The position numbers and the translations under genes were made by a program. Source: Cloeon dipterum (taxonomy: Eukaryota > Arthropoda > Insecta > Ephemeroptera > Baetidae). From it: 64,000 nucleotides of DNA. The notes below the pieces were generated by a model. That model saw only the letters and a program-made list of their open reading frames with translations. It had not been told where the DNA came from and did not search any database. The number at the start of each line of letters is the position of its first letter. Within the stretch, counting starts at the first letter, position 1. Location of the stretch: contig NC_088788.1 of NCBI RefSeq assembly GCF_949628265.1, positions 20,565,835-20,629,834 on the forward strand. The letters run 5' to 3'. This document shows positions 6,401 to 60,658 of the stretch, in pieces.

Positions 6401-9400
6401 GAATGAATCTTAATAGACAGCGACTACGCAAAAAACTCAAAAACGTCAAAATTGAAAATCAGGTCAACAGCTGAATTTATATATGATGGAGAAGGACCAG
6501 AGGAATCTCGCAGTTTTTTCTAATCTTCTCCGTACTATAAAATTTTTAAAATTTTATTATAGAAGTCTTTAATTTTTCTAATCTGGAATGCAGCCAACCT
6601 CAAGCAGAAATATTTACTCTAGAACTACTGAGTACTGTTTAAATGGGGAAATAACAGTATTTTAAGATAAATATATTTTTAGTGTAATGAGTGTAATTTA
6701 GCTATGTTCTAGATTTTGTTCAAATATATTGATAACAAAAATTTTAAAATAATTTTTTATTAATTTTGTTGAACGTTTGGAAGTTTGAATGCCTGTTCAG
6801 TAATCTCCATGTTATTTCACTTGAAAGTGCATGCATCCATCGAGTACAATAAACCGTTGGGGTAATTACTAACGAACACGCGAATACACTGATTTGAGCA
6901 TCTCTCCAATCACAAGCGCCACAGACATCAAAACCTGCTTATTAATGTTGACGCTCAACAACCGTGAATATGTGAAATTAATGCACAATTTAAGCTTCAA
7001 GCCAATCATTAATGTGGCTAATCGCAAATTTCCGACGCTACAAGGAAGCAACCTGCTGAGAGGTGGATAATTTGCTCGCAGTGCAACCAACTCGGCGCAT
7101 TTCCCGCGAGCAGCAGACACGTTGACAGTCGGCGATTAATGCGTGAGCACACGTGGACGTAAGTGCAGTTTAGAGCAGGATTTCGGCCTCGTGAGTCGTC
7201 TTGCAGGCAAATTGCCGTGAAACCAACCCGAGTGCAGTTATCTCTGCATCAAATCAAGCGGAATGTCGTTTCATTGAGTGCGTCTCGCGCTTAAACGACA
7301 CGAGAAAATTCCGTTTCCGCCGCTACTTATTTGTCATCCATTCTCGGAACGTAGACGCTCGACTTTTTTGCCTATCATTCACTCTGAGCCTCGATAAAGA
7401 CCTTTCATTCGATCATTGCTCTGCATTCAGGCGTAATTATGTAAATTCAGTCTAGAAAGTGTTTGCGCCGCGTGGAGTTACTTTTCCTTTTCGCTGTGGG
7501 AACGGCGTTAGGCCTAAATAAAATTCCCTGCGGCTCTCACACACATTCAAAATCTTATCTGCCGCCGGCTGCTAGAGGTGTTTAAGTAGCGTTTGCATGG
7601 CTTCTTACTAGCACCAAGTGCATTTTTATCGAAAGCCTGCGGAGTGCGAAAGGCGGCTACCGGCTCCGGCCTTAGATAAGCATAGTGACACTCGAAAGCG
7701 AAAATGACTTTATTATAGAAGATTTGAATTTGTTGCCGAATATCTCCCATAAAAGGCCGACAGCATTAACGACCTCTCTCGCTTTTTAATTCGTTCCTGC
7801 TGCCTTAACAGGCAATTTATAATCGTTTTAGGACGGATTTTTTAATGTGATATTGCAGTGAATTTGTATTTTACGACAACGTCGCGGAGCGCTCCATTAA
7901 GACGCTTTATTTGCAATTGATAAGAAACCTGTTCCTTCTGGAGGAACTTGAGAAGCGTCAAATAAGCCAACTCAGAATATTTTCCTAATGATACGTGAGT
8001 GAATGCGGGATTTCTGTATAATTTTTGAACTTCTCATTTCTGATATTCGTCACGTTTTTATGTTTTGATTGTTTGTCTGCCCACTCCCCTTGGCTGCGGG
8101 ACGGGACAATAAAGCGCGCCGCAGCTGGCCGTAGCCTCTATATTTATATTTTTGAAAAGCTCAATAGCAAATCTAACGAATCGTAAATCTTGCTCTATAC
8201 TTTGATAGTCGCGGACAATGCAGTCATTGAACCTTTCCCAATGCTGGTTGCATGTTGCCTCCCCTCGCGGCCGGCCGGCCACATCACACGCTCTGCGGTC
8301 CCCTTTTTTACACCAAAGGCACAATCATTGCGGCAGCAGGAAAGTGGAAATTATCGTGGGCGTCTGCTATTTTGTTATGATAAACAAGGCGGAAAAAATT
8401 ATCAAGGGAAGCAACCGACGTGGGTGAAATTCTATAGCTTTCAAACGGTTTTAATGTGTATTTTCTGAAGATTCAGCGTGGGAGTCCTCCATTGATGAAG
8501 TCAAACTTGATATCACGGGTGTTTGTATGATCACAATAAGTTTCCATTCTACGACCACAAACAATTCGACAAAGTTTACTTCTTAAAAGCTTGATAAAAA
8601 TTATAAAAGGGCACCGACTTTTTTTGCAGAGCACATACCAATTTTCAAATGCTTCTCACCTCCAATTATTTCTGCTTAAAAATAGTCATTAGTCATATTC
8701 TGCACTTGTGTGACCACATTTCTGCAATTAAATTAGCGCATTCAAAGAAATCATTAATTTTCTGCGATTTTGATTACAGGCTAGCGGCGAGAGTCGAATT
8801 CCTGTGTTTCGAGCGTCCGGCTTGAGGCCAGGCATGCATTCGGGTCAGTGGTCAACCGGCGGTGCAGGCCGTCGGCCGCTGGACTCGGAGTGCGTCGGCC
8901 AGCGGGTATGCGTGGGCGGTGAGGTGGTCGGCATCCTGCGCTTCTTCGGCACTACCGTTTTCGACACAAGTGGAAGCTCATGGTGTGGTGTCGAGCTGGA
9001 AACGCCAGACGGCCTCAACGACGGCTGCGTCCACGGCGTCCGCTACTTCTTGTGCAAGCCCTACCACGGCATCCTCGCGCCCGAATCTAAGGTACGGAAA
9101 ATTGTATTTTTTAACGCCCTATATTCTATTTAGCAATGATTTATCTTTGCACAAAAGAAATAAACAACACATGTTGTTGTTATTAAAATCGGTGTTTGTA
9201 TTTATTTTTAACTGAGAAGCGGTGAATCATTTGTTACGGTTGTCAATTTTAACAAGCGGAAAATTTTATGACGCTGGAAATGTTTAGTCTTTGTGGCCCT
9301 GACAGTCCATTCTTGCCGCACGACCCACTCGGCTTCCTTTGCTGTCGTCTGCCTCGTTGCATCCCGTGAAATTCCTCAGGGATTAGTATTGGGCACCGCT

Positions 9401-12400
9401 TCACTCATACTTGACACCCGCGACTCTCCTTTTCCTCTCTCTTCCACTTTTGGTATTTCTTTATACATATGCTGTTGCACACCCACGGCACGCTATTAAG
9501 TGAGGTTTTTTGAGTGAGCGTCGCGTAAAGCCTTCGTCTCGGATTCAAATCGAGGTTGGACCATCAGGAAAAGGGATCGCATTTCAGATGGGTCCGCAAT
9601 TGACTCATCTGACAGCAATTTTTGAACCGGTGATTTCAGTTGCGTTTTCACATTGCGGCTTGCTTCAATTCCTCTTTATACAACACACCCACTTGGTAAT
9701 AAATGTTCTCATGCCTATAATTTCGATGCCTTGCGGATGAGTTCATTTCTTAACATAAATCAGCACTGGCAGTCGTTCCGGTCAAATGTTACAAAAGCGC
9801 GCTGAGAATTTCGAGTTTAGCAACATCTTCCTCGCCTTCTCATATTAATGCAGCGCAACCATATTCAGAAATAACCTTAATACACACTTTAGATGCGTGA
9901 TTATGTCTCCATAAAAGTTACACGCTTGGCTTGAGCGAGCTGAGAAAATTTCCCTCGCCGTCATTTTTCCACCGCAGACTAACCTTCAGGTCGGCGTCTA
10001 AACAAAAAAAGTCAACACTTGTTCGCAGCTGTGTTAATTTTTTTGTGCCACAGCGAGCCGGCAAAAAGAAGAGGAGAGAGATATACAGTGTGTGCCAGTA
10101 ATAAACAAAATGTGCTTGCTTGTCGACAACAGGTGCAGTTGGTTGCAGAGGCTGGCGGACCCATAGGCTCCAAGAAGCGTCTATCGCCAGAGACCAAGAA
10201 GCGTTTATCGCCGGACCCCAGGAATTGTCTATCACCGGACACCAAGAGGCGTCTATCGCCAGACACCAAGAAGCAGCACGAGTATTCCAGCAGCAGTACT
10301 AGCAGCAGTCCCAGTGGATGTTCCCAGGAAGAAATCACTCCACCCCTACATCTGATGGTGGGTTTTCAGATTTTTTAATTGCAGAAATTAATCTGCGTCA
10401 TAATCATTGTAATGCCAAGAAAAAGTCGTCATTCTGTACCTTTCGCGCGGCGTAGAAATTTTTACAATTTGAAAATTCAATATAAAAATTTCCCTGAAAG
10501 TATGAACTAAAAAAATAATATAAAAAATATCAAATTCTTGCCAAGAGGAAATTCAACTTGCAACCGATTTTCCGCCAGCAAATAAATCAAGTACAAGTTG
10601 AGTAAACAAAAACTTACTTTTGACATTGAACTTTATGCACAGGATACATATATTGATTTAAACTTTTTATCACTTTCATTCCATAAATGGCGAGGTTGCG
10701 AATTCAAGTTTGATTGTTTGTAGGTTAAGATAAGCAGTGCAGTGGATCACTTTCTTTAACTCGCGGACCTTCGAGTTTCCTTCTCAATTGTTCTTTTTCA
10801 TTTTTTTTTCGCAGGCAAAAGCTCGTCACGGCCAGTCATCAGTGGAAACAACGTCTCCCATTCCGTGCACCAGCAGCTCCTCTCTCTGGAAGAGCAAAGA
10901 CACTTGCAGACAGAACCCAGACGAAGCAACTCCCCCTAAGGTAAGACAATACTCTTTGTTTTCGAGTGCCTAACCACCATCGCCTCACTCTTCTTGTCTG
11001 TAACGTCTGCCTGTGTGAATTATTGCTTCCGCGCTTTGAAAAGAATTGAATTGCCCTTTTCAAAATGTAATTAAGAGAATAAATTAATATCTATATGAGC
11101 TACTCTGATGCACTTAAGATCTGATAGCATCAATTTCTGATCTGGTGCTAACAAATCTAAACGCTCCAGGGATTTTGCATTTCAGTCCTTTCTATTCAGC
11201 CCACTTTCTCAAAATGACTAATGCTCGTTTGTTACGACCTCTTAACCCCTACAGTGTAACCTTTTTGCCGTATTGCAAAGTGAATGTGAGGGACATATCT
11301 TAATGGAAAGGTTTTTATTTATATTTTAAACCTTTAACCCTAAATTGAATAATATTTCCATGTAATATTTTAACACCACGATCTGTATCAAACTATCTTG
11401 CAAAAATATATAGCTCTCGTTTGCACGTTTGTTCGAGCAACAGCGGTTTAAGTTCTTTTGATCTTTTTTGGGTGTCGTATGTGTGCACTCCAATTATTAT
11501 CAAACTTGTTGACTCCTATGAACAGCCAAGTGTGAAACGCGAAAGTGCTAAATTTTTCAGGTGGCGTGCACGTCAATGGCACCGGCTCACGAGACCACCG
11601 CTATAAGCCCGACAGACAGCGAAAGCCGCGGCTCGTTGGCGTGCTCCTCGGGCAGCCTGATGCTGCCCCTGAATTGCTCGCCGCCCTCGTTTGTGCCCGG
11701 CCTGAGCAAATGCAACTCGTATGACTTCGACGACTCGCTGGGCATTCTTACGCCAGACCAAATGAACTCGGACTTTACGGCAACCTGCCCGGGTAGCGAC
11801 GAGGACGAACTCGAAGAAGCGGCCAAGCACGGAGGCATCCTTCTTTTGGAGTCACCGCCCAAGGAGTTCCATGAGCCTGTCGATAAGGAGCAGAGTAGCA
11901 TTTCGGCAGCCAAAGACCACGGCACCGCGTCAGCAGAGAATTCGACTTCTGATTTCGTCAGCAAAGGTAATTGAATTGACCTGTTTTAAAATTCTGAAAA
12001 ACCTAATTGTGATATTTAAAGAAATATTTCACAAAACATAGTTTTCAAATCAAAATATCACTCTTAGCCTATTTGTAACTTTCGTAACTTCAACTCTATT
12101 GCAATTTTTGAAAGTGCTTCACTTTCGTTTACTTAAATATTGTCATTAAAAAGTGAAACTTGTAAGCTGGCCTTTCTTATCAGCCATAGCTTTTCCGTTT
12201 GCTATATAATTGGAAGGTGATCGCACCTCGCGGCGATAATGTTAAAAAAAAACTCCGACCGGTTTATTGGCGAGTCGTGCATTGGGTGGCGCACAAACAT
12301 TGATAAAAGAATCACCACGACTGCTGTCTTGTGAAAGTGGGCCCCGCTTCAATTATCAATCACTTTTACTGTCTTACATGCCCTTATCGTGGAAATTTTC

Positions 12401-23683: not shown

Positions 23684-23804
23684 ATGTCTGTAGTTTACAC
23701 ATCTGCAGCTCTTAGTGCGACTTTGAAAATAGTGCCTCGAAGAATTAGTGCGAAAGCGACGATTGTCCGAAGGTAAGCAAGTCAATACTGATCAATCTGC
23801 TTCA

Positions 23805-23807
<3 letters not shown>

Positions 23808-23864
<57 letters not shown>
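23808..23864. repeat. (AT)n microsatellite
   Basis: An uninterrupted run of alternating A and T, about 57 bases, just downstream of the ACSF2 exon 1 donor, inside its first intron. Confidence 0.95.
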
Positions 23865-23868
<4 letters not shown>

Positions 23869-24187
23869 TAGTGATTTTATACTATCTTATTAATCCTGCG
23901 GACTTGAACAATTGATTTTCAAAAGACATCAGCGCGAAATCATGTGACAACAGAACTGCTTGGTTCATATCAGTTCATATTGCATCAATTCATACGCGAT
24001 GTAATTTTTGGGACGCGCACAAGTGTTTCAGCAGAGTAGCCATGTGCAGTGTCAACAGGCGAATTTTCACTGCCCCCAATAAAATTACGAGCAAGTATTA
24101 GCTAAATACAAATCTTTTGCAGACACAAGTCTACAAGTTACCTGCACTGCGCTGGACGAACGCCACTGACCTCACTCCCACCGAGAA

Positions 24188-24680
24188 AAAAGTCAACCAA
24201 AAGGTGCCCATTGGGTGCCCGCGTTCGGTCACCCGGCTACCCCCCGTGGGCACCCAGATGGGCACCCATTGGTTATACCGCATGTCCAACCCTTCGGGCA
24301 CCCGCGAGTGGTCATGCCCAGAATTCGGGCACCAAATGGGCACCCATTAAATGACCTTTCATAGAATCACCTTTTATGTACGTTAAAAGTATACCTGAAT
24401 TCAGGGAGCGTAATAAATAAGAGGCCGAGAATATTCGTTGACCAAAAGCTAACCATCGGGTGCCCGGCTGAGGTTACCACCAGTGGGCAGCCAATGGTTA
24501 CCTTTTGGCCACCTTTTATCTAGGGCTGTCAGGTGGCACTGGTGGCAGGTCAATTGACTCTGTCCTTTAAAAAAGTTAAATTTGAGTATAGCGCAAAATG
24601 ACAGCCCGAGGAAAGAGGTAGCCAAAAGGTAACCATTTGGTGCCCGCCTGCGGTTACCTTCAGTGGGCAGCTAGATGGGC
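24188..24680. repeat. Left subterminal GGTGCCC/GGTTACC repeats
   Basis: Three related blocks begin near 24,188, 24,442 and 24,616. Each has the order CCAAAAGGT, then GGTGCCCG, a GGTTACC or GGTCACC, and GTGGGCA. They sit at the left end of the insertion and are related in reverse complement to the array at its right end. Confidence 0.7.
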
Positions 24681-24798
24681 AGCACTTTTATTGGATGATA
24701 TTCATACAACAATTAAATTACAATTAAATAATACATTTGTTACATCAAATTTGAAGATTCATATTTTTAAAAATCCCCGAAAATCAAATAATGTGAAT

Positions 24799-25962
24799 GA
24801 AGGGTGGACTGTAACTCTTTACTGGGTTAAGTTATCACCTTGAAATTTTCAATGTCTATCCTAGTTTTCCACCATGAACAACTTATCAACCTACAAAAAA
24901 TTCGCAGGGCAAAGGTCAAGGTCACCTTTTGCAACCTTTACTCAAAAATTCAAAATAAAGGGATCGTACAACCCTTAGATCTTTTTGGGGTTCAGGGCTG
25001 AAATGTAGCCCTTGAAATTCTACACAAGCTCACCAAGTTTCAAAGGTGCAACAGTAGTTTTGCTGTAATTTGAATTTGAAAATTAAAATCCGGCTCGATG
25101 CCACTCGATCGAGCACGGCCTTTAGTCGGCGAGTTCGCCCATCATTCGTCGATAATATTTTTACCCATTCCATTTGGTTTGATGGTTGGACACATCAAGA
25201 GGGCCCAGGGTAGACATACTAAGGTCGATACCGACCTTCAGGGTCTGTACCTGACGTGACCCTGAGATATATTTTTTATAAATATCCAATTTGATCGAAC
25301 TTGGTGTCTTTCCATAGGTTATCAACGCTCTGCAGCTCAAATATAAAGTCAAAACTGCCGATTTCAAATTTTAACACTTTTAAACATATCGTCAGGATTA
25401 ATGGCTTCCACAATTATTTCAAGAATTGGTTTCAGGATTGTTATTCGGCGGTTTAGGCTGTATTTTTGAGCTGTACAGAGGCCAAAACCTATAAAAAGAC
25501 ACCATTCTTGATGAAATTGGACATTTTCGAAATTATTATCTCAGGGTCTCATCAGGTTCAGACCCTGAAGGTCAATTTTGACCTTACTATGTCAATCCTT
25601 GGTCCTCTTGTTGTGCCTAAGCAAATGGAACGGATTAAAATATTATTGACAAATGATAGACGAACTCGCCGACTAACGGGCATGCTCGATCGAGCGGCAT
25701 CGAGCCGTATTTCAACTTTCATTTTCAAATTACAGCAAACATTTTTGGTACTTCTAAAACTTGGTGTGCTTGTGCAGATTTTCACGGGCTAACCCCAAAA
25801 AATCTGAGGGCTATCATCCCTTAATATTGAATTTTCAAACAAGAAAGGTGACCATGACCTTTGACCTGCGAATTAAAAGTCGTTCACAATTGAAAACTAG
25901 GTTTGGCAGTGAAAATTCGAAGGTTATACCTGATGCAGTTAAGTTACATTCCACCTTTCAAT
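24799..25962. repeat. Long inverted repeat (arms about 0.52-0.56 kb, 80-bp spacer)
   Basis: The stretch 24,799-25,363 is matched in reverse complement by 25,444-25,962, with mismatches and small indels along the whole length. Shared landmarks include CTCGATCGAG, GGTCTGTACCTGACG / CATCAGGTTCAGACC, AAAGGTGACC and AAACTAGG. Short frames in mirror positions (25,161-25,367 minus and 25,466-25,792 plus) encode similar peptides only because the arms match. Transcribed RNA would fold into a long double-stranded hairpin. Confidence 0.85.
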
Positions 25963-26955
25963 AACAGAATAAGCAGTTACAATTAAAAAAATAAATTATT
26001 AAGTGCAAACAACAATTTTTCAACACCAAAAAAATAGACTGCGGAGAACTGCACACTTACAAATTAATAAGACTTAATAGTTAAAACGTTTAAAACCATA
26101 ACAACATATTAATTTTTGAGGTGATGCAGTAACAGAACAAATAATATTGGATGATTATAATAATTGTACGAGTTTACCTGCAGTTGGGAATTCCCCCTTG
26201 GCTGCCATTAATTGGCATTCTTTTGATTTTAATAAGATTTCACTGAGATAGAGGACATGGTCCTGCTGCTGTACATTCAACATTCAACCCTTTAAATAAT
26301 TATATCTGATGTGCTGGAAACCAAAAACAGTTAAGCCAATCATGGTCGAAGTGTAATTACATTTGTTTTCAATGTGCTGATGTTTCTAGGGTGATTGGCG
26401 TAACTGATTTTGGTTTTGAGCACATTAAAATTAATTATATAAGTCCAGAAGGCACAGCAGCAGTATTTAATAAAAAAAAAACACAATGAGAGGGAATTAA
26501 AATCAGAAGTATACCAGTGGCACCATCTATTGTTATTATTGAAACATTTAAGGCTTTTGCAATTGATATTTTTGAACTTATGATATCACTATCAGAGAAA
26601 TTAATTTAAAAATTAGTTGTGTCTACAATTAGTTGTCAAGGAAATCTAGAAATATTCATCTAGAGAATGCAAACCTTAAATAAAAATATGCCGCAAACAC
26701 AAAATCAAAAAATAGTTATCGGAATTCAATTCAGTTGTTGCGAACATTTGTTAAGTGAATTTACGTGTTTGAGCAGAAAATTAGAGCCTTGTTAATATTA
26801 ATTTTAAAGATTTCAACACACAAAAAACGCCATAAAACATACAAAGAAAAGCACTCAATATCCCTACTCATGTCCAGCGTCCAGCACTACTTATCCTGTC
26901 AAACATGGCCGTTGCTTTACATCTTTGGGGTCCATATGGTCCCATCCATTTCACG

Positions 26956-27395
26956 TCAGCCGAAAACGCAAACAAAACAGCAGACAAACCCTGCAAAATA
27001 AAATACAAAGTATTAATTATCTACTCAATAATATCGCCGGGAATTCAACTGCATACCTGCGGATACTGCGGCCGGAGTTTTGTTAACTTGTCCAGGCTTG
27101 TCATCCGCTATTCCCAACCAGAGCCAGAGGACATCAAAATAATCAATCAGGGCGGGACGCGGTGCTAGCCTGATGACACAAGGATGATTTTAAAGCAATT
27201 TAAAACGAATATTTTGATGCCAGTATGTGTCTACGCGCGCGTATTTTTGTACACCGCCGCGCCGTACGCAAATCTAATGTAAATTCAATGCATACCCTTA
27301 CCTTTCGGAACATCAGGAACATCGACAATCCATCCAAGAACCCGTTGATGTTGTCTATTTGTCGAAAGCAACCGAAAACACGGCGAAAATCTCGG
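26956..27395 (-). CDS. Possible minus-strand spliced reading frame inside the insertion
   Basis: Three candidate minus exons are 27395-27302, 27164-27057 and 26990-26956. Their signals are TTTTTAG acceptor, AAAG|GTAAGG donor, GCTAG acceptor, CCGCAG|GTATGC donor and TTTTGCAG acceptor, then a TGA. Phases agree (237 nt, 78 codons plus stop) and the DNA is more GC-rich than its surroundings. There is no in-frame ATG in the first exon, so a 5' exon is missing or the model is wrong. The predicted peptide is hydrophobic in the middle (LWLWLG) and matches nothing I know. It could be an element gene or a captured host fragment. Confidence 0.25.
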
Positions 27396-27669
27396 CTAAA
27401 AATGATGATGCAATCCAGCGCGTCTCAACCATCATGCTTGTTTTCAGTCACTGAGCATGAGGCAGCCGCAGCTGGTGCTACTGCCGACAGTGGCGCCACA
27501 AGCGCGGCCGACGAGTGTAACAAAGAAACGCGCGCGCGATAATGCTGAGCTAAAATAATAATAATTGCTCAAAACGAGTTAATAATTTTAGAGTTTGAAA
27601 TGCTAATTAGTGTTATAACCAAATAAATTTTTAAAAAATAATTTTTTACGAAACACGAACTCAAGAATT

Positions 27670-27900
27670 TACGGTGGTTCTCAGGTTGCCCATTGGTTAA
27701 CCATTGGGTAACCCATTTTGGTTATAAATTTTTTTATTTATTTCTTCACTTTAACTACTTTTACAAAAATATTTTCCAAAATAAGTTAAAACTTGTGGTG
27801 ACGAAAATCTGACAAAATTTGAGGGTAAAACGAGTAAAGTAAAATGGTGCCCGCGCATCGGTTAACCATTGGGTAACCAAAAGTTGCCCCTTTTTAGCAA
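27670..27900. repeat. GGTTAACCATTGGGTAACC repeats inside the insertion
   Basis: Two short blocks (about 27,680-27,715 and 27,845-27,890) carry GGTTAACCATTGGGTAACC, similar to the subterminal repeats and separated by AT-rich sequence. Confidence 0.6.
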
Positions 27901-28017
27901 TCATATTAAAATGCATAAAAATTTATTATTCAATCCTACAATAACCACAATAATATTTTTTCTGTGCCCAAAATTTTACGAAAACAGTTCATGAACCGGT
28001 CACACCGCATATGCAGT

Positions 28018-28574
28018 TATCCTATCCGAGTTACCCGAAAGCTGCCCGATGGCTGCCCACGACTGGGCACTGGCAATTTTAGGTGATCCCAGCCAAATAT
28101 AAAAAATTCCAACCAAGCCAGGTTCAAGGTCATGCCTGAAATGCAAAACCGCCCCTAGTTTAATTTTTTCAGGTGACCGCAAGTGACCATAGTTAACCGC
28201 CTGCCCACTCCGAGTATCCGAAAGGTGCCCGATGGGTGCCCAAGACTGGGCACTGGCAATTTCGGGGATCCAAGCAAAATTTCGACAAAAATTTAATGAA
28301 ACATGATAAAGGATCATGCCTGAAATGCAAAATCACCCTTAGTTTTAATTTTGTTAGGTGACCGCAAGTGACCCCCTGCCCGCTCCGGGTAACCGAAAGG
28401 TGCCCATTTGGTGCCCGAGACTGAGCACTCAAAATTTGCACGATCCAAGCCAAATTTCAAAAAAATTCCAATGAAACATGAATCAGGATCATGCCTTCAT
28501 TGCAAAACCACACTTTGCTCAACTTTTGTCAGGTGACCGAAAAGTGACCGCGGTTACCCCTCTGCTCGCTGGGG
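28018..28574. repeat. Tandem array of about 180-bp units, three copies, right end of the insertion
   Basis: The landmark GACTGGGCAC (or GACTGAGCAC) occurs at 28,061, 28,244 and 28,419, giving spacings of 183 and 175 bases. Each unit also has CCGAAAGGTGCCC-like, CATGCCTGAAATGCAAAA-like and AGGTGACCG blocks. The last partial unit runs right up to the ACSF2 exon at 28,575. Confidence 0.85.
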
Positions 28575-30533
28575 CTGACGGTCGGACGGCTTGTGGACAA
28601 CGCTGCGGAGAAGTGGTCGGACAAGACTGCACTGGTGACATGTCACCAGAGCGCCAAGTTGACCTTTCGACAAGTCCGCGACAAGGTCACGCTCATTAAT
28701 GCTCGCGATTAACATAGCTAGAAATGTCTGACCCCGTTGCGAACCATACATTACTCTTCCAGGCCGATCAGCTGGCCGCGGGGTTTGTGCGTTTGGGTCT
28801 TCGGCCCGGCGACCGGCTCGGCGTCTGGGCGCCCAACTGCGAGGAGTGGTACCTCACGCAGATGGCCGCGGCCAAGGCCGGCCTCATGCTGGTAAAGCTG
28901 TGAATTTTTTGTTCATTAAAAAAATCAACAGTCACGAAAGGTAACCATAAACCCGCTGTACGAGGCAAAGGAGCTGCGAGAATGCTTGAGAAAAGTGCAG
29001 GCGAGAGGGTTGGTCTATGGGGAAAAGATTCGCAACAAAAGCATGCACGACACCCTGATGCAAGTGCTGCCCGATTTGGAGAAGACGGGCGACGGCCTGG
29101 TGCGTTCTTGGCACTTAGAGCACTTGAAAAGTATCATAGCAGTTGGACCTGAACCACCTAAGTAAATCTAATCATGAAAATACGCATTTTTGTTAAATAT
29201 TCTTTTGCAACATAAAGAATATCTGTTCGTTTCGACGATTTGGTGAAAGAAGATTTGGAAAATGCGAGAAAGATTGTTTTAAAAATAGAGGAGAGCATTC
29301 AACCTGATGACCCGTGCAATGTGCAGTTTACATCAGTAAAAAGTTTTAATTTAAATTGTACAACCGAAAGCTTATTTAGATTTAATGTTCTATAGGGCAC
29401 AACTGGGCTCCCAAAAGCGGCTGTTTTGAGCCATCACAATATTGTAAATAACAGTTGGTACATCGGGGAACGATTCGAATTAAATGACAAGGTGAGTGTA
29501 ATTTTGTCTTACAAATTTTTGTTGGTCGAAAAAAAATACATGCGTCACATTTATAGACCTATATGAACTGTAGCTATATAAAAAATTCTGTAAATATATA
29601 CAGCGATTCAAAAACACGTTTTTCTCAGGAGGAAAACTCGATATGCATGCCAAATCCCCTGTTTCACGCTTTTGGCTGCGTAATCGGCACGCTGGTAGCA
29701 CTCAGCCATGGAATAAAACTCGTCTTGCCCGCGCCTATGTCCAACGGAAAAGAAACTTTGAAAGCGCTCCAGCAAGAAAAGTATACCAGGAAAATGCTTT
29801 AGATGTTTGTGTCTGATCTGAATTTTCTCACGCAGCTGCACAATCGTGTACGGCACCCCCACGATGCACATCGACCTGCTGAACGCTATCAGCATGAATT
29901 CCGTGCAAAAATCGGAATTAAATGTGAAAATCGCAGTAACCGCTGGCGCTTTCTGCCCAGCGGAAATCCAGCGCCGAATCAAGACCAATTTGGCCGCATT
30001 CGTTTGCGTACGAAAATTGCATGAGTATTTTTATGAGCATTAAATTGATCACCTTTAACTTCAATACTAGACATGCTACGGAATGACAGAATGCAGTCCC
30101 GTCAACTTCCAGTCTTCACCGTCCGACCCTGAGGACACTTTCAACGTTTCCGTAGGCAAGCTAAGCGATCACTGGGAGGCGAAGGTTGTCGACCCTGAAG
30201 GAAACATGGTGCCGTTTGGGGCGCCTGGCGAGCTGTGGGTCAGGGGCTACGGAAATATGCTAGGGTATTATGAGGATGAAAGTGCTACCAGAGCCACTCT
30301 GAGACACGATGGGTGGCTCAGGACTGGGTAATAAAAACTTCGCAACCGCAGATTTATTAATCGACCTGTTCAATTTATTTTACTCTTGTAGCGACCAATT
30401 CGTGATTGACAGTTGCGGTTTCGGTAGAGTTGTCGGCAGGATTAAGGATTTAATAATCAGGGGCGGTGAAAACATATACCCTGGTGAGGTTGAGGACGTT
30501 TTGCAAACCCACCCTGATATAATCGAGGCACAG

Positions 30534-31386
30534 GTACAGAGAAATCAATTCATTTTATAAATTTTTAAACGAATTGTAAATATTGTTGAGCCACATATCC
30601 ATCATCTTAAAACTAATTGTTTTAATATTAAATGCAAAATCATTCTCGAAAAAATTCATTTGTTTCAAGGAATTCTATCTTGCCAGCGATTTGCACATCT
30701 TATATTGACTTTCGTTTATGATACGCGATTTACATCGTCCAGAGTGAACCGTGTTAGTAAAAAATTAATTTACGCTCATAAAAAATATATGTAATGATAG
30801 GAATTTAAAAAGACACGTTTATATTCAGCGCTGTTGATTTCATGCAACATCCTTCATACTGCTGTGCAGTATTATTAAAAGTGACAAGTTTAGTGATGTG
30901 CACAAATATTGGCACTAAACGCATATGGCATAGCACACTATTAACGATTGAAGTTTGCTGTGGAAACTGTCGCAAACATAAGGGACACAAATCTTGCTCA
31001 CACGACTGATTCAGTGACTTATGTTTGTGTCTCTTGTAATTTCCACTCATATAGAAGAGAAAGACAGCACAATATTTTGTTCAAACTTGCTCTGACTGGC
31101 TCTGACATAGCAAGCCTTATATCCTCCCCTCTGCTACTATTATTAGTCCTGCAGGAGCAGGGGTATGTAAATGTAACCCGTGTGGCACGACTGTCAGACA
31201 GATTGCATAAATTTTGAATTTGCAGGGGCTAGCTGCGATAGCTGAAAGAAAGTTTGACGCGTAAGACGGCTATAGACCTAAATAAATATTATATTGCATG
31301 TCAATATTTATGCATTCGCAAGGATTAATCAGTACTCCCAGTTAAAATGGTGTGCACTAAATGAAATTATTTTTGTATGAGAGCAG
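30534..31386 (+). other. Last long intron of ACSF2
   Basis: A phase-0 intron between GTACAG and an acceptor ending GAGCAG. AT-rich at first, then about 500 bases of more balanced composition with a small hairpin near 30,980-31,035. No gene is supported. Confidence 0.6.
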
Positions 31387-31681
31387 GTGGTAGGAATTCC
31401 TGACGAAAGGTTGGGTGAGGTTGTTTGCGCCGCTGTCAGAGTTGCTGACAAAAAAAGCCTGGACATCAGTGCAGCAAGACAATTTTGCGAGGGGAAGGTT
31501 AACTAGTTTATTTTAGAATAGGCTATATTTCTTAATTTTTTATGTTTTCTTTCAGATCGCTAAATATAAAATCCCGATGCACGTGATTGTTGTTGAAGAC
31601 TACCCCAAAACTGCAACCGGCAAAATACAAAAGTTCCATCTCAAAGGCGTGCTTGAAGAAATTGTAAAAAAATCACCATAA

Positions 31682-32196: not shown

Positions 32197-32613
32197 ATGT
32201 CACTCAGGACAGAAGTGATAAACCTGTACAAAACGGTAAGCTCAACACTAACAAAATACTAATAAATAGTTAAGCAAATTTAATCTCCTGAAATTGTAAT
32301 TTGAATCAAATTCGTGCCATGCATTAATCTCCTTGATTTTCCCTCTTGACAGTTGCTGCACCTAGGCAAGGACTATCCTCAAGGCTTTGAATACTTTCGT
32401 CGGAGGTTGAAAAACGCGTTCCTCAAGAACAGAGACGAGACGGACCCAGATAAGATTAGGATCATGATCGCCCGCGGAGACTTTGTGGTCAAAGAAATTG
32501 AAGCGCTCTACATGCTAAGGAAGTATCGCACAATGAAGAACAGGTACTACTCGGAGTCCAACAAGGACAAGGCTGTGCAAGCTCCTGGACAAGGTCCAGA
32601 CGCGGCTACTTAA
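32197..32613 (+). CDS. ETFRF1: LYR-motif protein, electron transfer flavoprotein regulator (LYRM5)
   Basis: Two coding exons, 32197-32235 and 32353-32613, join in phase 0 (99 aa). The first exon encodes [13 protein letters not shown], which contains the LYR-family motif as LYK. The second has the family's conserved helix region ([16 protein letters not shown], then [10 protein letters not shown], then Y-Y near residue 81). LYR proteins act with the mitochondrial acyl carrier protein. ETFRF1/LYRM5 removes flavin from electron transfer flavoprotein in the matrix. Length is slightly above the usual 88-90 aa because of a short polar C-terminal tail. AATAAA occurs at 32720. Its neighbour ACSF2 is also a fatty-acid enzyme, but the two are separate genes. 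Confidence 0.88.
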
Positions 32614-35528: not shown

Positions 35529-36819
35529 ATGAACCTACGATACAAGCTGATTCTGGTCGGGGTTTCTATTTTGATTATCTGGAGACTGCTTAGCCTAGCA
35601 CCTCGCCAACCAGCGATGGATCTTACAATTTTAGAACGAGAGGTGAACCCAATATTTTTTCTAAACTCTTTTTGTTGCTCTCATTGAATGGAGCCCGACC
35701 GAACGGAAATGGACACGAGTTCAATATTTATGTCGTACATAGTTATACATTATTTATTATTTTAAAATCATTCCTAAAATTACACGTCATCTCGTGCATG
35801 CTTCCTGCGTGACTTGTACATTACTGGAAGAGAACAAGTCATATTATGTGATACGAATAATTGTATTTTTAAGTGAGAGTAAACACCAAATAAATAATAA
35901 CACACTGGCTCTGTTCACGGGGAATTATTTTAATATATTTTCGCTCTTTATTCATGCGCACTAAAAATGTATTTCGACCATCTTTACAGGTTGGATCTAA
36001 AATCGACACTAGTTCTTCGACGTCTTCCTCCAAAGAAAAAGTTGCCGTTGCTGTGTTCTACGAAACTTTGTGTCCAGACTCAAGAGGTTTTTTCATCAAC
36101 CAGCTGCTTCCAACTTTGGAAAGAGCCCCTGATATTTTCAAAATCATTTTGGTACCATATGGGAAGGCTTCGGTAGTATTTCTCTAAATTATCCTCGCAT
36201 TTTAAATACCGAATTTGAACAGACTGTATCTCATGGGGATTCAGTCGAATTCACTTGCCAGCATGGTCCATTGGAATGCGAAGGCAATAAGGTCCATGCT
36301 TGCGCTACAAAACACGTCCGGGACCAGCTCACCCTGGTGCGATATGCCACCTGTATGATTAGTGACAATTTAGACCCTGAAGATGCTGGCAAAAAGGTTT
36401 GATACAATTTCATTCAGCGTGAATTAATGTTTATTAGTTTCTCTTTAGTGTGCGAGGTCATTAAATATTGACTGGGATCCGATTGTCGCTTGCTCGAGAG
36501 GGAGCGAAGGAAAACTATTGCTCGCCAAAATGGGCGAAGCAACTCATTCTTTAAATCCACCTGTCACCTTCATTCCCACGATTGCTGTAAATGAGGTATA
36601 ACTAAATTAATGTGAAGCTTATGCATATCTCAACTGTCGCAATCTATAGCGTTTGAGCAATCAAGCTTCACTACTTAAGAGATTGTTTGAAGAGTTGTGC
36701 ACTAGGTTCCAGGTTTGAAACAATATTTTTTTTTCTGCGCAAGAGTTCGTTTTTAATTTTTGCAGGTTGTTCCTGAGTCCTGCAAGGGAATATCAACAGT
36801 GGCGTTCCATCCCCTCTGA
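35529..36819 (+). CDS. GILT-family lysosomal thiol reductase-like protein
   Basis: Exons 35529-35642, 35990-36172, 36223-36396, 36449-36595, 36650-36712 and 36766-36819 all join in phase 0 (735 nt, 244 aa). Residues about 5-22 form a hydrophobic segment (signal peptide or signal anchor). The GILT signature is clear: CQHG at 111-114, then the EC...N...C spacing (CQHGPLECEGNKVHAC). The thioredoxin-like site reads CPDS (66-69), so the second cysteine of the CxxC pair is absent. GILT proteins reduce disulfides in lysosomes and are linked to immunity in insects. With one cysteine this paralogue may be a weaker or different enzyme. Invertebrate genomes usually hold several GILT copies, so no specific symbol is given. 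An AATAAA is seen at about 37,384, and another at about 37,466. Confidence 0.88.
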
Positions 36820-38241: not shown

Positions 38242-40170
<1,929 letters not shown>

Positions 40171-41148: not shown

Positions 41149-44100
41149 ATGGCAAGCCAGTTCAAGTTGTTGGAAAGGTGACTTGAATTTATATCACGCC
41201 TTTGGGATTTTTGTGGATGGTTGAAAATTGAATAATGATATTTTCAGCTTTGAAGTGCAGTCCCAGTACACGGCATTTTTTACTGGAAACCAAATAGCGG
41301 TGTGTATTTTTTTAATTTCCACTGTCACCACAAAAGAATAATAATGGTAATTGAAATGTTTTAGTGGACTCAAGATGGGAATCATATGCTGTGCCAGGAT
41401 GGTGCCAAAATTCACATGCTTGAGCTGGAGAGTGGAAAAGTTTTGTACTCGTTTGACAATTCTACTGGAGATTCTGATATAAAAGATGACCCCGTCACCG
41501 CTTTTTCTGTTTGCGAAGACGAGTTTGGCTCGTATCTGTTCGCTAGTTACAGAAGTGGTTTGATGATTAAATGGTGCCGGAAAGGTATGATCCTGATTTC
41601 ATCTTGAAACTGAAATGTTTAACTGGCTGTTTTTTTAGAGAATAAAATATTGCGTACCTGGAAATCGGTGCACAAAGGACCGGTGGCTCAAATTGCAGTT
41701 GATGAAGATTGCCTGTACCTGGCAACAGGGGGAAGTGATTCAAAAATTCGAGTTTGGGAGTTGGCAAACTTCAATTGCATTGCCAGTCTAAAAGGGTGCC
41801 AAGGTGTAACTAGGTATGTAAAGTTTAAGGAAATTTAAGTTGAATTTCAAAATTTTTATTTTCAGTGTTCTGAAGTTCCGCCCGAACTCGAACGAGGTAT
41901 TTGCGGCTGGCGACGACTGCAAAATTCGGAGCTGGTCTGTCAGCGATGGTGCAGAAAAATTGGTATTGGAGTCTCACTTCAGTCAGGTCACTGCCTTCGC
42001 TTTTTCTGAAAACCAGCTTATCAGGTATGAAAAGGGAGAAGACATTTTGGTGCTTAAGAGTTATATACTGTTGATATTTTAGTGCCGGTCGGGACGCTGT
42101 GATTTGCCTCTGGAATTTGGACAAAGGAACTATTTTGAAGACCATTCCAATTTTTGAAAGTATCGAAGGGCTAGTTTTGCTTCCAAATGACTGCATTTTA
42201 CCTGGAAACTACCACGTTGGATCCAACAGTGGACCCCATGTTGCTGTTGCAGGAGAGAAAGGTTTGTTTTAAAATAGTTTATTTGGATAGCATTCTTATT
42301 GGGTTTATTCTGTCAGGTGTTGTCAGAGTGTGGCAGGTGGAAAAAGCCAAAGAGGTTTATGTGCAGTCAGACTCGCAAATTTCGCCTTCCGCCGAGCCTG
42401 GTGGTTTGGCTGTGATTTCACTGATGCTGAATGGAAATACTCTTGCTATGGTTGGCGTTGAACACACAATCGTGCTACACTCTCTCAGTGACTTCAAATG
42501 CCAGCGCCTGGTAATTATATTTTATAGTCAATCATACTCTTATTCTCTCAATTAATTGAATTATATAGTTAACTGGCTACTGCGATGAAATCTTGGATAT
42601 CACCTTTTGTGGCAAGGATGACACGCATTTGGCCGTAGCGAGCAACAGCCCAGACATTAAGCTGTACAGAATGAAGGATATGCACTGCATCCTGCTCAAA
42701 GGCCATACCGACATTGTTCTGGCTCTCTGCGCAACTCCTTTGCAGCCAAATCTCCTGGCGTCTTCGGCAAAGGTGAGTACTTAACATTTTTTAAGATGTA
42801 ATACATTTTTTAAATATTTGTTAAATAATAAGTGCCTTCGTTTAAAGAGCTTCAGTTTTCAGTGGAAGGAAAGTTAATTGAATAATGTTAATTTGTTTTT
42901 ATCTTCAACAAACTTAGACATGCAACCGCTCAACTAAACATTGTGCTGTCTAGGGTAGAAAACCAGTGTCCAAATTCCAATAATATCGCCATTTATGGAT
43001 CTAAATAAGCTTATGATATGACATTATTGAAGAATAGATTGTTATAAATGTGGTTATAAAAAATAGCTTTCAATAAGACAAGAAAAATGGTTTTCTTTTT
43101 CTCTCACAATCAGCATTGATAGTCATATTGACGCAATGTTTATATGAAAATTATATTTTAATCCTTAAATTTACAGGACAATTCTGTGCGACTTTGGATA
43201 GTTGACGAAGAGCAAAGCACAGCGACTTGCGTTGCCTCTGGAATGATCCACATGAATTCTGTTGGTGCCATTGCTTTCAGCAGAACAACTGCGAATTGGT
43301 TGTATTCTGGCGCACAAGATAATTGCATCAAAGCGTGGGAAATTAAAAATTCCGGTAGGATCTTGAGCTGTATCATCCAATTTGATCTAACTTTAGAATT
43401 ACAGATGGACAATACACACTCTCATCTAAGCATTCTGTTATTGCCCATGATAAAGAAATCAACGGTCTGAGTGTTTCTCCTAATGACAAAATTGTTGCCT
43501 CTGCTAGCCAAGACAAAACTGCGAAGGTTAGTTTGTTCCTCAGATTTATTGAAAAAGATACTTCACATAATATGAAGCTGAGCGTAATATCAGTCGAATT
43601 GTTAATTCTCTAATGGAGAGTAAGCTGAAGATTGATGTTTGAGATATCAGATTTAACATAATCCTGTTTCATGGAAGTTGTTTTTCCCTGTGTTTTGGTG
43701 CACAAGTGCATGACAATTACTTTTAATTTTAGCTCTGGAATAGTGACTTGACACTAATTGGAACTCTTCGCGGACACAAAAGAGGGGTCTGGTGCGCCAG
43801 ATTTTCACCAGCTGACCAAGTTTTGGCGACAGGCTCTGCTGACTGCACTGTGCGACTTTGGAATTTAGCAGACCTGACTTGTATTAAGGTGAGCATAAAG
43901 TTATCCACCACACTGCTATCTAATCAACAACGCTCATTAGACTTTCGAAGGACATGACGCGTCGGTTTTGAAGCTGGAGTTTGTTGCAGCGGGGTTGCAA
44001 TTTTTGACCAGCTCAGGGGACGGTCTGCTCAAATTGTGGACGGTAAAAAACAGCGAGTGCTGTTTGACTCTAGATGGTCACGAAGGAAGAGTTTGGGCTT

Positions 44101-44881
44101 TGGCTGGTAAATTGCCTTCTTGTGAAGTGTCAATAATTTTTCAACATTTTTTCCAGTTCACTCCGACAAGGCTCATTTTGCGTCTGGAGGATCAGACTCA
44201 AAGTTTGTCATCTGGAAGGACACGACTGTTGAAAAACAGGAACAGGCCAGGAAGGAGATGGTGGAGAGGGTCGAACAGGACCAAACCCTGTCCAACCTTC
44301 TTCACAACAAGATGTATGACGCCGCTCTTGAGCTAGCTCTACAGCTCAACAGGCCGAACACTTCTCTCAAAATTATTCAGAGTAAGTTCATCTAGTGTGT
44401 CTCATATCTATTACAATTGAGTAATTCTTGATCATTAACTTTGTATAGCTTTGTCAGAGGACAAAAATATGCTGCGGGCATGTGTGGAAAAACTTTCACC
44501 AGAATTGCAGGAATCTTTGCTGCAACTGGCACTTAAGTGGAACACAAACACCAGGAATTGCAGCATGGCACAGGTATTCAATCAATTTTGTGAATTAAGA
44601 AACGTAATATTATGCATTGGTATTAAAAATTTAGATCATCAGTTTATTGGATCTAAATAGACTTATGTCAATTGAACAATTAATTTGAAGCTATAAATTT
44701 TTTTCAGTTGATCTTGGAATTTATGCTGACAGAAGGTTCCGTCCAGCTCAGCACGCAGGATCTAGCACACGCACTAGCCTACACTCAGAAGCACTTTCAA
44801 CGGCTTTCACAGCTACGTGCTGACCTTCATTTCTTAACGTACACGGCTGCGAGAATGACTTTAATGCCTGATGAAGCTTAA
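41149..44881 (+). CDS. TBL3: Transducin beta-like 3 / UTP13, SSU processome WD40 protein
   Basis: Fifteen exons: 41149-41177, 41248-41299, 41365-41584, 41639-41813, 41866-42024, 42083-42261, 42317-42510, 42569-42772, 43177-43354, 43405-43526, 43733-43888, 43941-44106, 44157-44381, 44449-44573, 44708-44881. All phases agree; 2,358 nt, 785 aa (human TBL3 808 aa). The protein has two WD40 propellers (about residues 10-650), with repeats such as LATGGSDSKIRVWE, LATGSADCTVRLWN and FASGGSDSKFVIWK, followed by the helical UTP13 C-terminal domain (about 660-785, with NLLHNKMYDAALELALQLNRP). UTP13 belongs to the UTP-B subcomplex that binds pre-rRNA in the nucleolus for 18S maturation. Its stop is 117 bases from the stop of MAD2 on the other strand, so the two 3' UTRs probably overlap. 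Confidence 0.95.
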
Positions 44882-46140: not shown

Positions 46141-46766
46141 TTTTTATATTATTACCTAAATTCTATAGTTCCTGGTCAAGTTTCACTTTATTAACAGCAA
46201 AAGCAGTGCCTGCCCGCGCTTTCGCAGACCAAGCTGCAGCCAAATCAGTCGCAAAGAGCAGGGTAGTTTAGACAGGAGGAAAGAGCTGCAACTAAAAAGC
46301 TTGACAAATTTAAACCAAAAATACTTGCACTTTTAATGGCTTTCATGATTTTGTAAAACTAAAACTTGAGTTTCAAAAGCTTAATTTCTTATTATATGCT
46401 GTAGTATTCTTGTGCTATTTTGAGTATTAACTTTTGGTTTATATTTTACTAAAATCTGAACCTCCTAACCACCTAATAATGACGCACGCGCATTGATAAA
46501 AATGATAGATTTAGCGGTTTCGGCTTGCTACGTCCAATCAGAAATGATAAATAGATTCATTAGCGACAGTGACAGTGAGCGTCATCATCTCAGCTGTAGC
46601 CAGCTGTAACTGTTTACCATTGGGAAGGTTGTGTTGGTAAATAAAATAAAAATAGCATTAATGTTGACCTATCTCATAAATTTATGATAACACAGGCTTA
46701 ATTTCCCGTAGAATTGACTACCTTGGAATCTCAATCTCGATCTCTGAGAAAGCGCGGCTCAAGAGA
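46141..46766. promoter_or_regulatory. Bidirectional promoter region, MAD2 / CDK2AP
   Basis: The two start codons face away from each other across 626 bases. On the plus side an untranslated first exon of CDK2AP may end at 46636 (TGTTG|GTAAAT) and resume after CACAG (46695) or CCGTAG (46711). GC-rich patches lie near 46,200-46,260 and 46,560-46,620. No element was identified by name. Confidence 0.5.
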
Positions 46767-47036
46767 ATGGAAGAAGAAATGATGGCAGAGCAGCGGGCCG
46801 CCGCTATTGCGGCTGGAGCGAACCCAGACATGTTCCCAATGCTACAACATCACCAGGCAGTGCCCCAATCAAAGTACGCACAGCTACTTTTAGTCATTGA
46901 GGAAATGGGCCTCGACATCCGCCCCTCATACGCCGGCAACAAGAGCTCTGCTGAGCGCCTCAAAAGAGGTCTAGTCCACGCCAGGATCCTCGTCCGGGAG
47001 TGTCTCATGGAGACCGAACGGAGCGCCCGACAGTGA
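46767..47036 (+). CDS. Cyclin-dependent kinase 2-associated protein (CDK2AP1/DOC-1 family)
   Basis: A single coding exon of 89 codons. The C-terminal 55 residues match the CDK2AP1/2 domain: [33 protein letters not shown] and [22 protein letters not shown]2AP proteins are subunits of the NuRD chromatin complex and associate with CDK2. The N-terminus is Ala/Met-rich and shorter than in human CDK2AP1 (115 aa). The first ATG after the probable splice acceptor is used as start. Insects generally have one member, so CDK2AP1 versus CDK2AP2 is not decided. Confidence 0.9.
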
Positions 47037-60554: not shown

Positions 60555-60658
60555 ATCAACGGTCAACTTTATTTATAATGGATGCAAATCATCAAGCGCC
60601 GAGCCAATCAACGGTCAACTTTATTTATAATGGATGCAAATCATCAAGCGCCGAGCCA
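60555..60658. repeat. Perfect 52-bp tandem duplication
   Basis: The unit at 60,555-60,606 (starting ATCAACGGTC, ending GCCGAGCCA) is repeated without change at 60,607-60,658. The unit has no coding support. Confidence 0.97.

Follow-up and report, generated by a model that had tools for sequence, protein, structure and literature searches.

A 4.4-kb, foldback-like insert in a coding exon of an ACSF2-like acyl-CoA synthetase gene: a probable disabling transposon insertion

The duplications of Galileo measure 7 bp, and SOS splicing is triggered by the pairing of terminal inverted repeats. The foldback Tetris makes duplications of 8-10 bp (PMC4079207), and those of the foldback Tm1 are mostly 9 bp long (PMC3169594). 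Transposons inserted in exons and removed from the pre-mRNA, namely Tc1 in C. elegans and 412 in Drosophila vermilion, are cited in PMC2586383; our literature search for exonic insertions that are spliced out gave no matching paper. The account of the dinoflagellate Amoebophrya describes introners with direct repeats of 3-5 nt overlapping the exon/intron boundaries, non-canonical ends and inverted repeats, supported by RNA and drawn from introns of 40-1000 bp (PMC7789003), and a review records SOS splicing in animals (PMC13247085).

The locus compared here with these systems lies in a window of 64,000 nucleotides, the whole stretch of DNA that was analysed. It is a gene for an acyl-CoA synthetase at 23684-31681 on the + strand, which we take to be the animal ACSF2, the comparison set consisting of bacterial relatives only. 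Its 13 coding pieces, separated by 12 gaps, were located by eye and then joined by a script. Eleven of the gaps (49-853 bp) have GT-AG ends; the sole exception, 24171-28574, makes a twelfth gap of 4409 bases when one CTGAC goes with the insert. The coding pieces are arranged as follows.

23684-23772, + strand: exon 1, with the start codon and the donor GTAAGC
24123-24170, + strand: exon 2, the left portion of the interrupted exon, with the C-terminal end S-Y-L-H-C-A-G-R-T-P-L
28580-28685, + strand: exon 3, the right portion of the interrupted exon, beginning T-V-G-R-L-V-D
28763-31681, + strand: exons 4-13, with GT-AG introns between them and before exon 4

With the insert and one CTGAC deleted, the joined frame is open over 586 residues, and neither a stop nor a frameshift occurs in the gene outside the insert. 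An earlier note on this DNA had given a model of 588 residues, a length that would be reached with the exon 9 donor placed six bases further. With regard to exon 9, a choice of donor exists (within 30002-30070), the 30002 donor having the lowest score (-4.3) among the 11 scored donors of the gene; use of the next GT, six bases past 30002, would add two residues and narrow a three-residue gap in the protein. Exon 1 presumably encodes a targeting peptide. In Pfam searches, the joined protein matches PF00501 (AMP-binding, E 1.3e-85) and PF13193 (AMP-binding_C, E 9.2e-17), and the best NCBIfam model is NF009233, a fatty acid CoA ligase family, at 533.1 bits, under its own cut-off of 832. Both domains, together with this family-level similarity, place the protein among the AMP-binding acyl-CoA synthetases.

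Direct and inverted repeats abound in the insert, whose main features are listed below.

24166-24170, + strand: left CTGAC, candidate target-site duplication
28575-28579, + strand: right CTGAC
24171-28574, + strand: transposon-like insert, its ends uncertain by about 10 bases on the left and about 4 on the right
24177-24185, + strand: left TIR-like sequence CCCACCGAG, an 8/9 match to the reverse complement of 28565-28573
28565-28573, - strand: right TIR-like partner
24181-24700, + strand: left repeat block, with three direct copies starting CCGAG (24181, 24425, 24606) and inverted copies between them
24762-25993, no strand assigned: nested long foldback (about 1.2 kb); between its arms, 24762-25361 and 25445-25993, 439 of 547 aligned bases pair
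26292-26442, no strand assigned: short foldback, with 72-nt arms that are 74% complementary
28025-28570, + strand: right repeat block, made up of roughly three units, each 175-184 bp long

The nested palindrome at 24762-25993 is probably a separate foldback or MITE. Repeat modules occur in both orientations at each end of the insert, but they do not form a single clean pair of long arms at the termini, and a perfect inverted pair of 20 nt joins 24325-24344 with 28399-28418. The TIR-like match is weak: with ends of 15, 20 and 30 bases, a match as good arises in 91, 97 and 335 of 5000 shuffles, and ends of 60 bases give a different best inverted match, reached by 1210 of 5000 shuffles. A longer inverted repeat spanning the boundary (GACC-TCA...CGAG and its partner) is not relied on here, because 3-5% of controls reach it: of 20000 trials in each case, 903 with random pairs, 965 with shuffles and 639 with GC-matched pairs.

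Five open frames of the insert (92-112 aa) gave no Pfam match above cut-off, and hence no transposase; the element would therefore be non-autonomous. The frame at 26836-27165 contains a zinc-finger-like stretch (zf-C2HC_2, E 0.0019, 18.3 bits against a cut-off of 27) and is perhaps a captured gene fragment. In a blastn self-comparison of the window (E <= 1e-5, low complexity masked), the repeats were confined to the insert and one minisatellite at about 10.2 kb, with no second copy of the element in the window, and a search of viral_contigs with one exact 22-base pattern found no copy there. An LTR retrotransposon was rejected: direct matches from end to end span tens of bases at most, and the self-comparison showed none.

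The insert resembles Tetris, Tm1 and Galileo in that no coding capacity was found, that direct and inverted repeat modules lie near its two ends and that it contains a nested element with inverted repeats. Unlike in these foldback transposons, its left-end and right-end units share one orientation, besides the inverted copies, and in contrast to the duplications of Tetris and Tm1, no duplication of 7-10 bp with at most one mismatch keeps the frame here. At the edges, four 7-bp pairs with one mismatch were found, all of them frame-shifting, compared with an average of 7.55 at 300 random places, and none of 8-10 bp. A longer imperfect target duplication of 7-10 bp was thus set aside (four found, 7.55 expected, none frame-keeping), and we do not file the insert with the described foldbacks because it has no 8-10 bp duplication. 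It is like the Tc1 and 412 cases in that mobile DNA lies within an exon, but differs from them in having no canonical splice sites at its edges and in being known from DNA alone. With the Amoebophrya introners it shares a short direct repeat at the boundaries and non-canonical ends, whereas its 4.4-kb length, its weak end inverted repeat and the GT-AG ends of the other ACSF2 introns set it apart. Similarity to the substrates of metazoan SOS splicing lies in an animal-like coding exon that contains an element rich in repeats, observed in this case at the DNA level.

The CTGAC reported previously on both flanks is indeed present, at 24166-24170 and 28575-28579. Among 20000 fixed random joints within the window, 137 share at least five bases and 3445 at least two, the true chance of a five-base repeat being higher than 137/20000 because several joints are open to choice. 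Four other removal lengths, within about 25 bases of both ends, also share five or six bases, and one of these (4430) keeps the frame. The five-base repeat at the joint is unusual but short of decisive. Similarity of the left module starts at 24181 with respect to two other direct copies and extends outward to 24163, inside the exon, with respect to one inverted copy, while that of the right unit ends at 28570 against the first unit and at 28549 against the second. A secure assignment of bases 24171-24180 and 28571-28574 to host or element is therefore not possible.

The joined protein was compared with bacterial relatives. Of these, 16 were matches in 81 genomes (E <= 1e-90); another 398 genomes from that phylum (E <= 1e-120) contributed 29 further loci and 23 matches lacking a locus, of which 20 were also used. 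This set, 65 of 68 distinct matches, stems entirely from one bacterial phylum; L001 (sharing its genome with L014), L002 (partial, 26% match), L003 and L004 had been left out beforehand. Identity to the window protein is 34-42% for these relatives, and among themselves it falls to 32%. From S to PL of exon 2, the alignment is gapless with all 65, and each of them has exactly three residues between PL and T, whereas the window protein joined at CTGAC has none (PL-TVG). The span from the upstream S to T is 14 in all 65, including the three residues absent from the window, and the closest gap-bearing column among the relatives is residue 66. The empty site implied by CTGAC is therefore nine bases short exactly at the joint. 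Like these relatives, human ACSF2 has three residues at this position. Deleting the insert together with one CTGAC had been claimed to restore the conserved protein; the frame is open through the 13 pieces, as stated, but restoration of the protein is not confirmed, the joint being three residues short relative to 65 of 65 relatives.

Removal of 4400 instead of 4409 bases gives the length of the relatives, for example as PL-TSL-TVG (CT shared) or PL-LGL-TVG (G shared), with only one or two bases repeated at the joint. Scored against the family columns, five tripeptides have log-odds of 4.5 (LGL), 1.94 (TGL), 0.47 (TSL), 0.33 (MGL) and -1.73 (TWL). The best of them, LGL, requires CTGGGG at 28569-28574 to be host, yet similarity to one element unit reaches 28570. 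In comparison with 45 relatives, the window protein has a further three-residue gap after residue 372, which coincides with the exon 9 donor choice, and two two-residue insertions; given these other length changes, a loss of three residues before the insertion is possible. Either the lineage may have lost the three residues earlier, or CTGAC would not be a target duplication, and we rate a true CTGAC duplication combined with an older loss and the lack of any five-base duplication as about equally likely. Elsewhere, the window protein keeps 64 of the 68 columns that are invariant in the relatives, the changed ones being residues 327, 351, 365 and 376.

With regard to splicing, GT-AG ends had been said to occur at no placement of the 4409-base removal and CT-AC at one, which our analysis reproduced and extended. 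When the removed piece was slid over 61 starts and eight frame-keeping lengths, none of the 488 placements near the joint had GT-AG, GC-AG or AT-AC ends, and a canonical spliceosomal intron of these types at 24171-28574 was rejected. Stops announced inside the insert were also found.

24352-24354, + strand: first in-frame stop (TGA) when exon 2 is read on into the insert, after 106 residues
28545-28547, + strand: in-frame stop (TGA) upstream of exon 3, in frame with it and located past the final AG within the insert

A hidden microexon or a shifted acceptor was rejected as well, since the AGs between 28480 and exon 3 (28486, 28532 and 28544) all precede the in-frame TGA at 28545.

Taken together, we favour, with a probability of about 0.7, a recent insertion of a 4.4-kb non-autonomous, foldback-like DNA transposon into the ACSF2 coding exon, producing a disabling and probably polymorphic allele. 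An element composed of repeat modules, both tandem and inverted, and containing a nested foldback would have entered the exon that now forms pieces 2 and 3. With no usable splice sites, the transcript would run into the element and terminate at TGA 24352; it would probably be removed by nonsense-mediated decay, leaving this ACSF2 copy a null allele that is probably segregating. A null allele is the likeliest outcome because the rest of the gene has no stop or frameshift and keeps the 64 of 68 invariant columns, and the same lack of lesions elsewhere makes the 'fairly young' age given in the earlier note plausible. Of that note's young-transposon reading, what holds is the insertion of something resembling a mobile element into a coding exon that is intact in other respects, on the strength of the repeats, the foldbacks, the lack of canonical splice ends, the open frame and the invariant columns; the 5-bp target-site duplication is not established because the implied empty site is without the three residues that all 65 relatives have there. 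Besides this shortfall, the short and weak TIRs and the five frames without a transposase speak against the favoured reading, as do the 108 of 138 columns kept (columns at least 95% one residue), a count that, with bacterial relatives only, cannot be separated from ordinary divergence. An assembly or haplotype artefact, or a dispensable second copy of ACSF2 with an intact one elsewhere, seems distinctly unlikely: the window is one assembled sequence, which leaves room for it, but the two flanks are parts of one gene, correctly ordered and in frame, which a misjoin would not readily yield. Since introns are present, the copy is not a processed one.

Other readings would have the gene tolerate the insert at the RNA level. 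Removal from the mRNA by a putative spliceosome-independent route, either through inverted-repeat pairing and RNA ligation in the manner of SOS splicing or by excision of the insert as a non-canonical intron resembling an introner, is unlikely in our opinion. It would agree with the open remainder of ACSF2, with the relatives' length after a 4400-base excision (65 of 65), with the pairing of the ends in one predicted fold (30-A linker) and with the perfect 20-nt inverted pair, and precedents are provided by SOS splicing in animals (PMC13247085) and by the boundary direct repeats and inverted repeats that mark Amoebophrya introners (PMC7789003). Nevertheless, the end pairing barely exceeds chance, the excision of 4400 bases must be exact, and no special mechanism is required if the allele is simply young and null. 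The narrower proposal that the element works as a non-canonical intron, with exactly 4400 bases excised by a structure-directed, spliceosome-independent route, a protein of conserved length and CTGAC as a chance repeat of the host exon, is most improbable. Partial rescue by cryptic canonical splicing, joining a GT of exon 2 or the left insert in frame to an AG inside exon 3 at the cost of some conserved residues, is very unlikely. When GTs between 24124 and the 24352 stop were paired with AGs located in 28480-28685, 17 in-frame pairs left an open frame, and the top donor, 24204 (score 3.4 on a consensus-based scale, acceptor 28651), falls within the range of the gene's 11 donors (-4.3 to 12.2); however, all 17 products lack at least TVGRLVDNAAE, the eleven residues adjoining the joint.

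If the insertion is a null allele, as we favour, it offers an ordinary but useful case of a metabolic gene disrupted by a transposon, and of the way in which gene models go wrong. If the element is instead removed from RNA, the locus would be a natural animal substrate on which excision without the spliceosome could be tested, and in which the three joint residues provide a built-in readout of the bases kept.

In the neighbourhood of the gene, Pfam matches above cut-off correspond to CAP-Gly (8774-9130), the LYR family (32350-32610), GILT (35894-36184), NAC and UBA (39686-40105), WD40 (43941-44333) and CDK2AP (46680-47033). Gene content of this sort, notably the GILT, CDK2AP and NAC domains, together with the gene name given in the earlier note, points to an animal as the source of the DNA. 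A 24-bp minisatellite of 4.4 copies lies within open frames at 10170-10274, and a 52-bp unit is present in two perfect tandem copies at 60555-60658.
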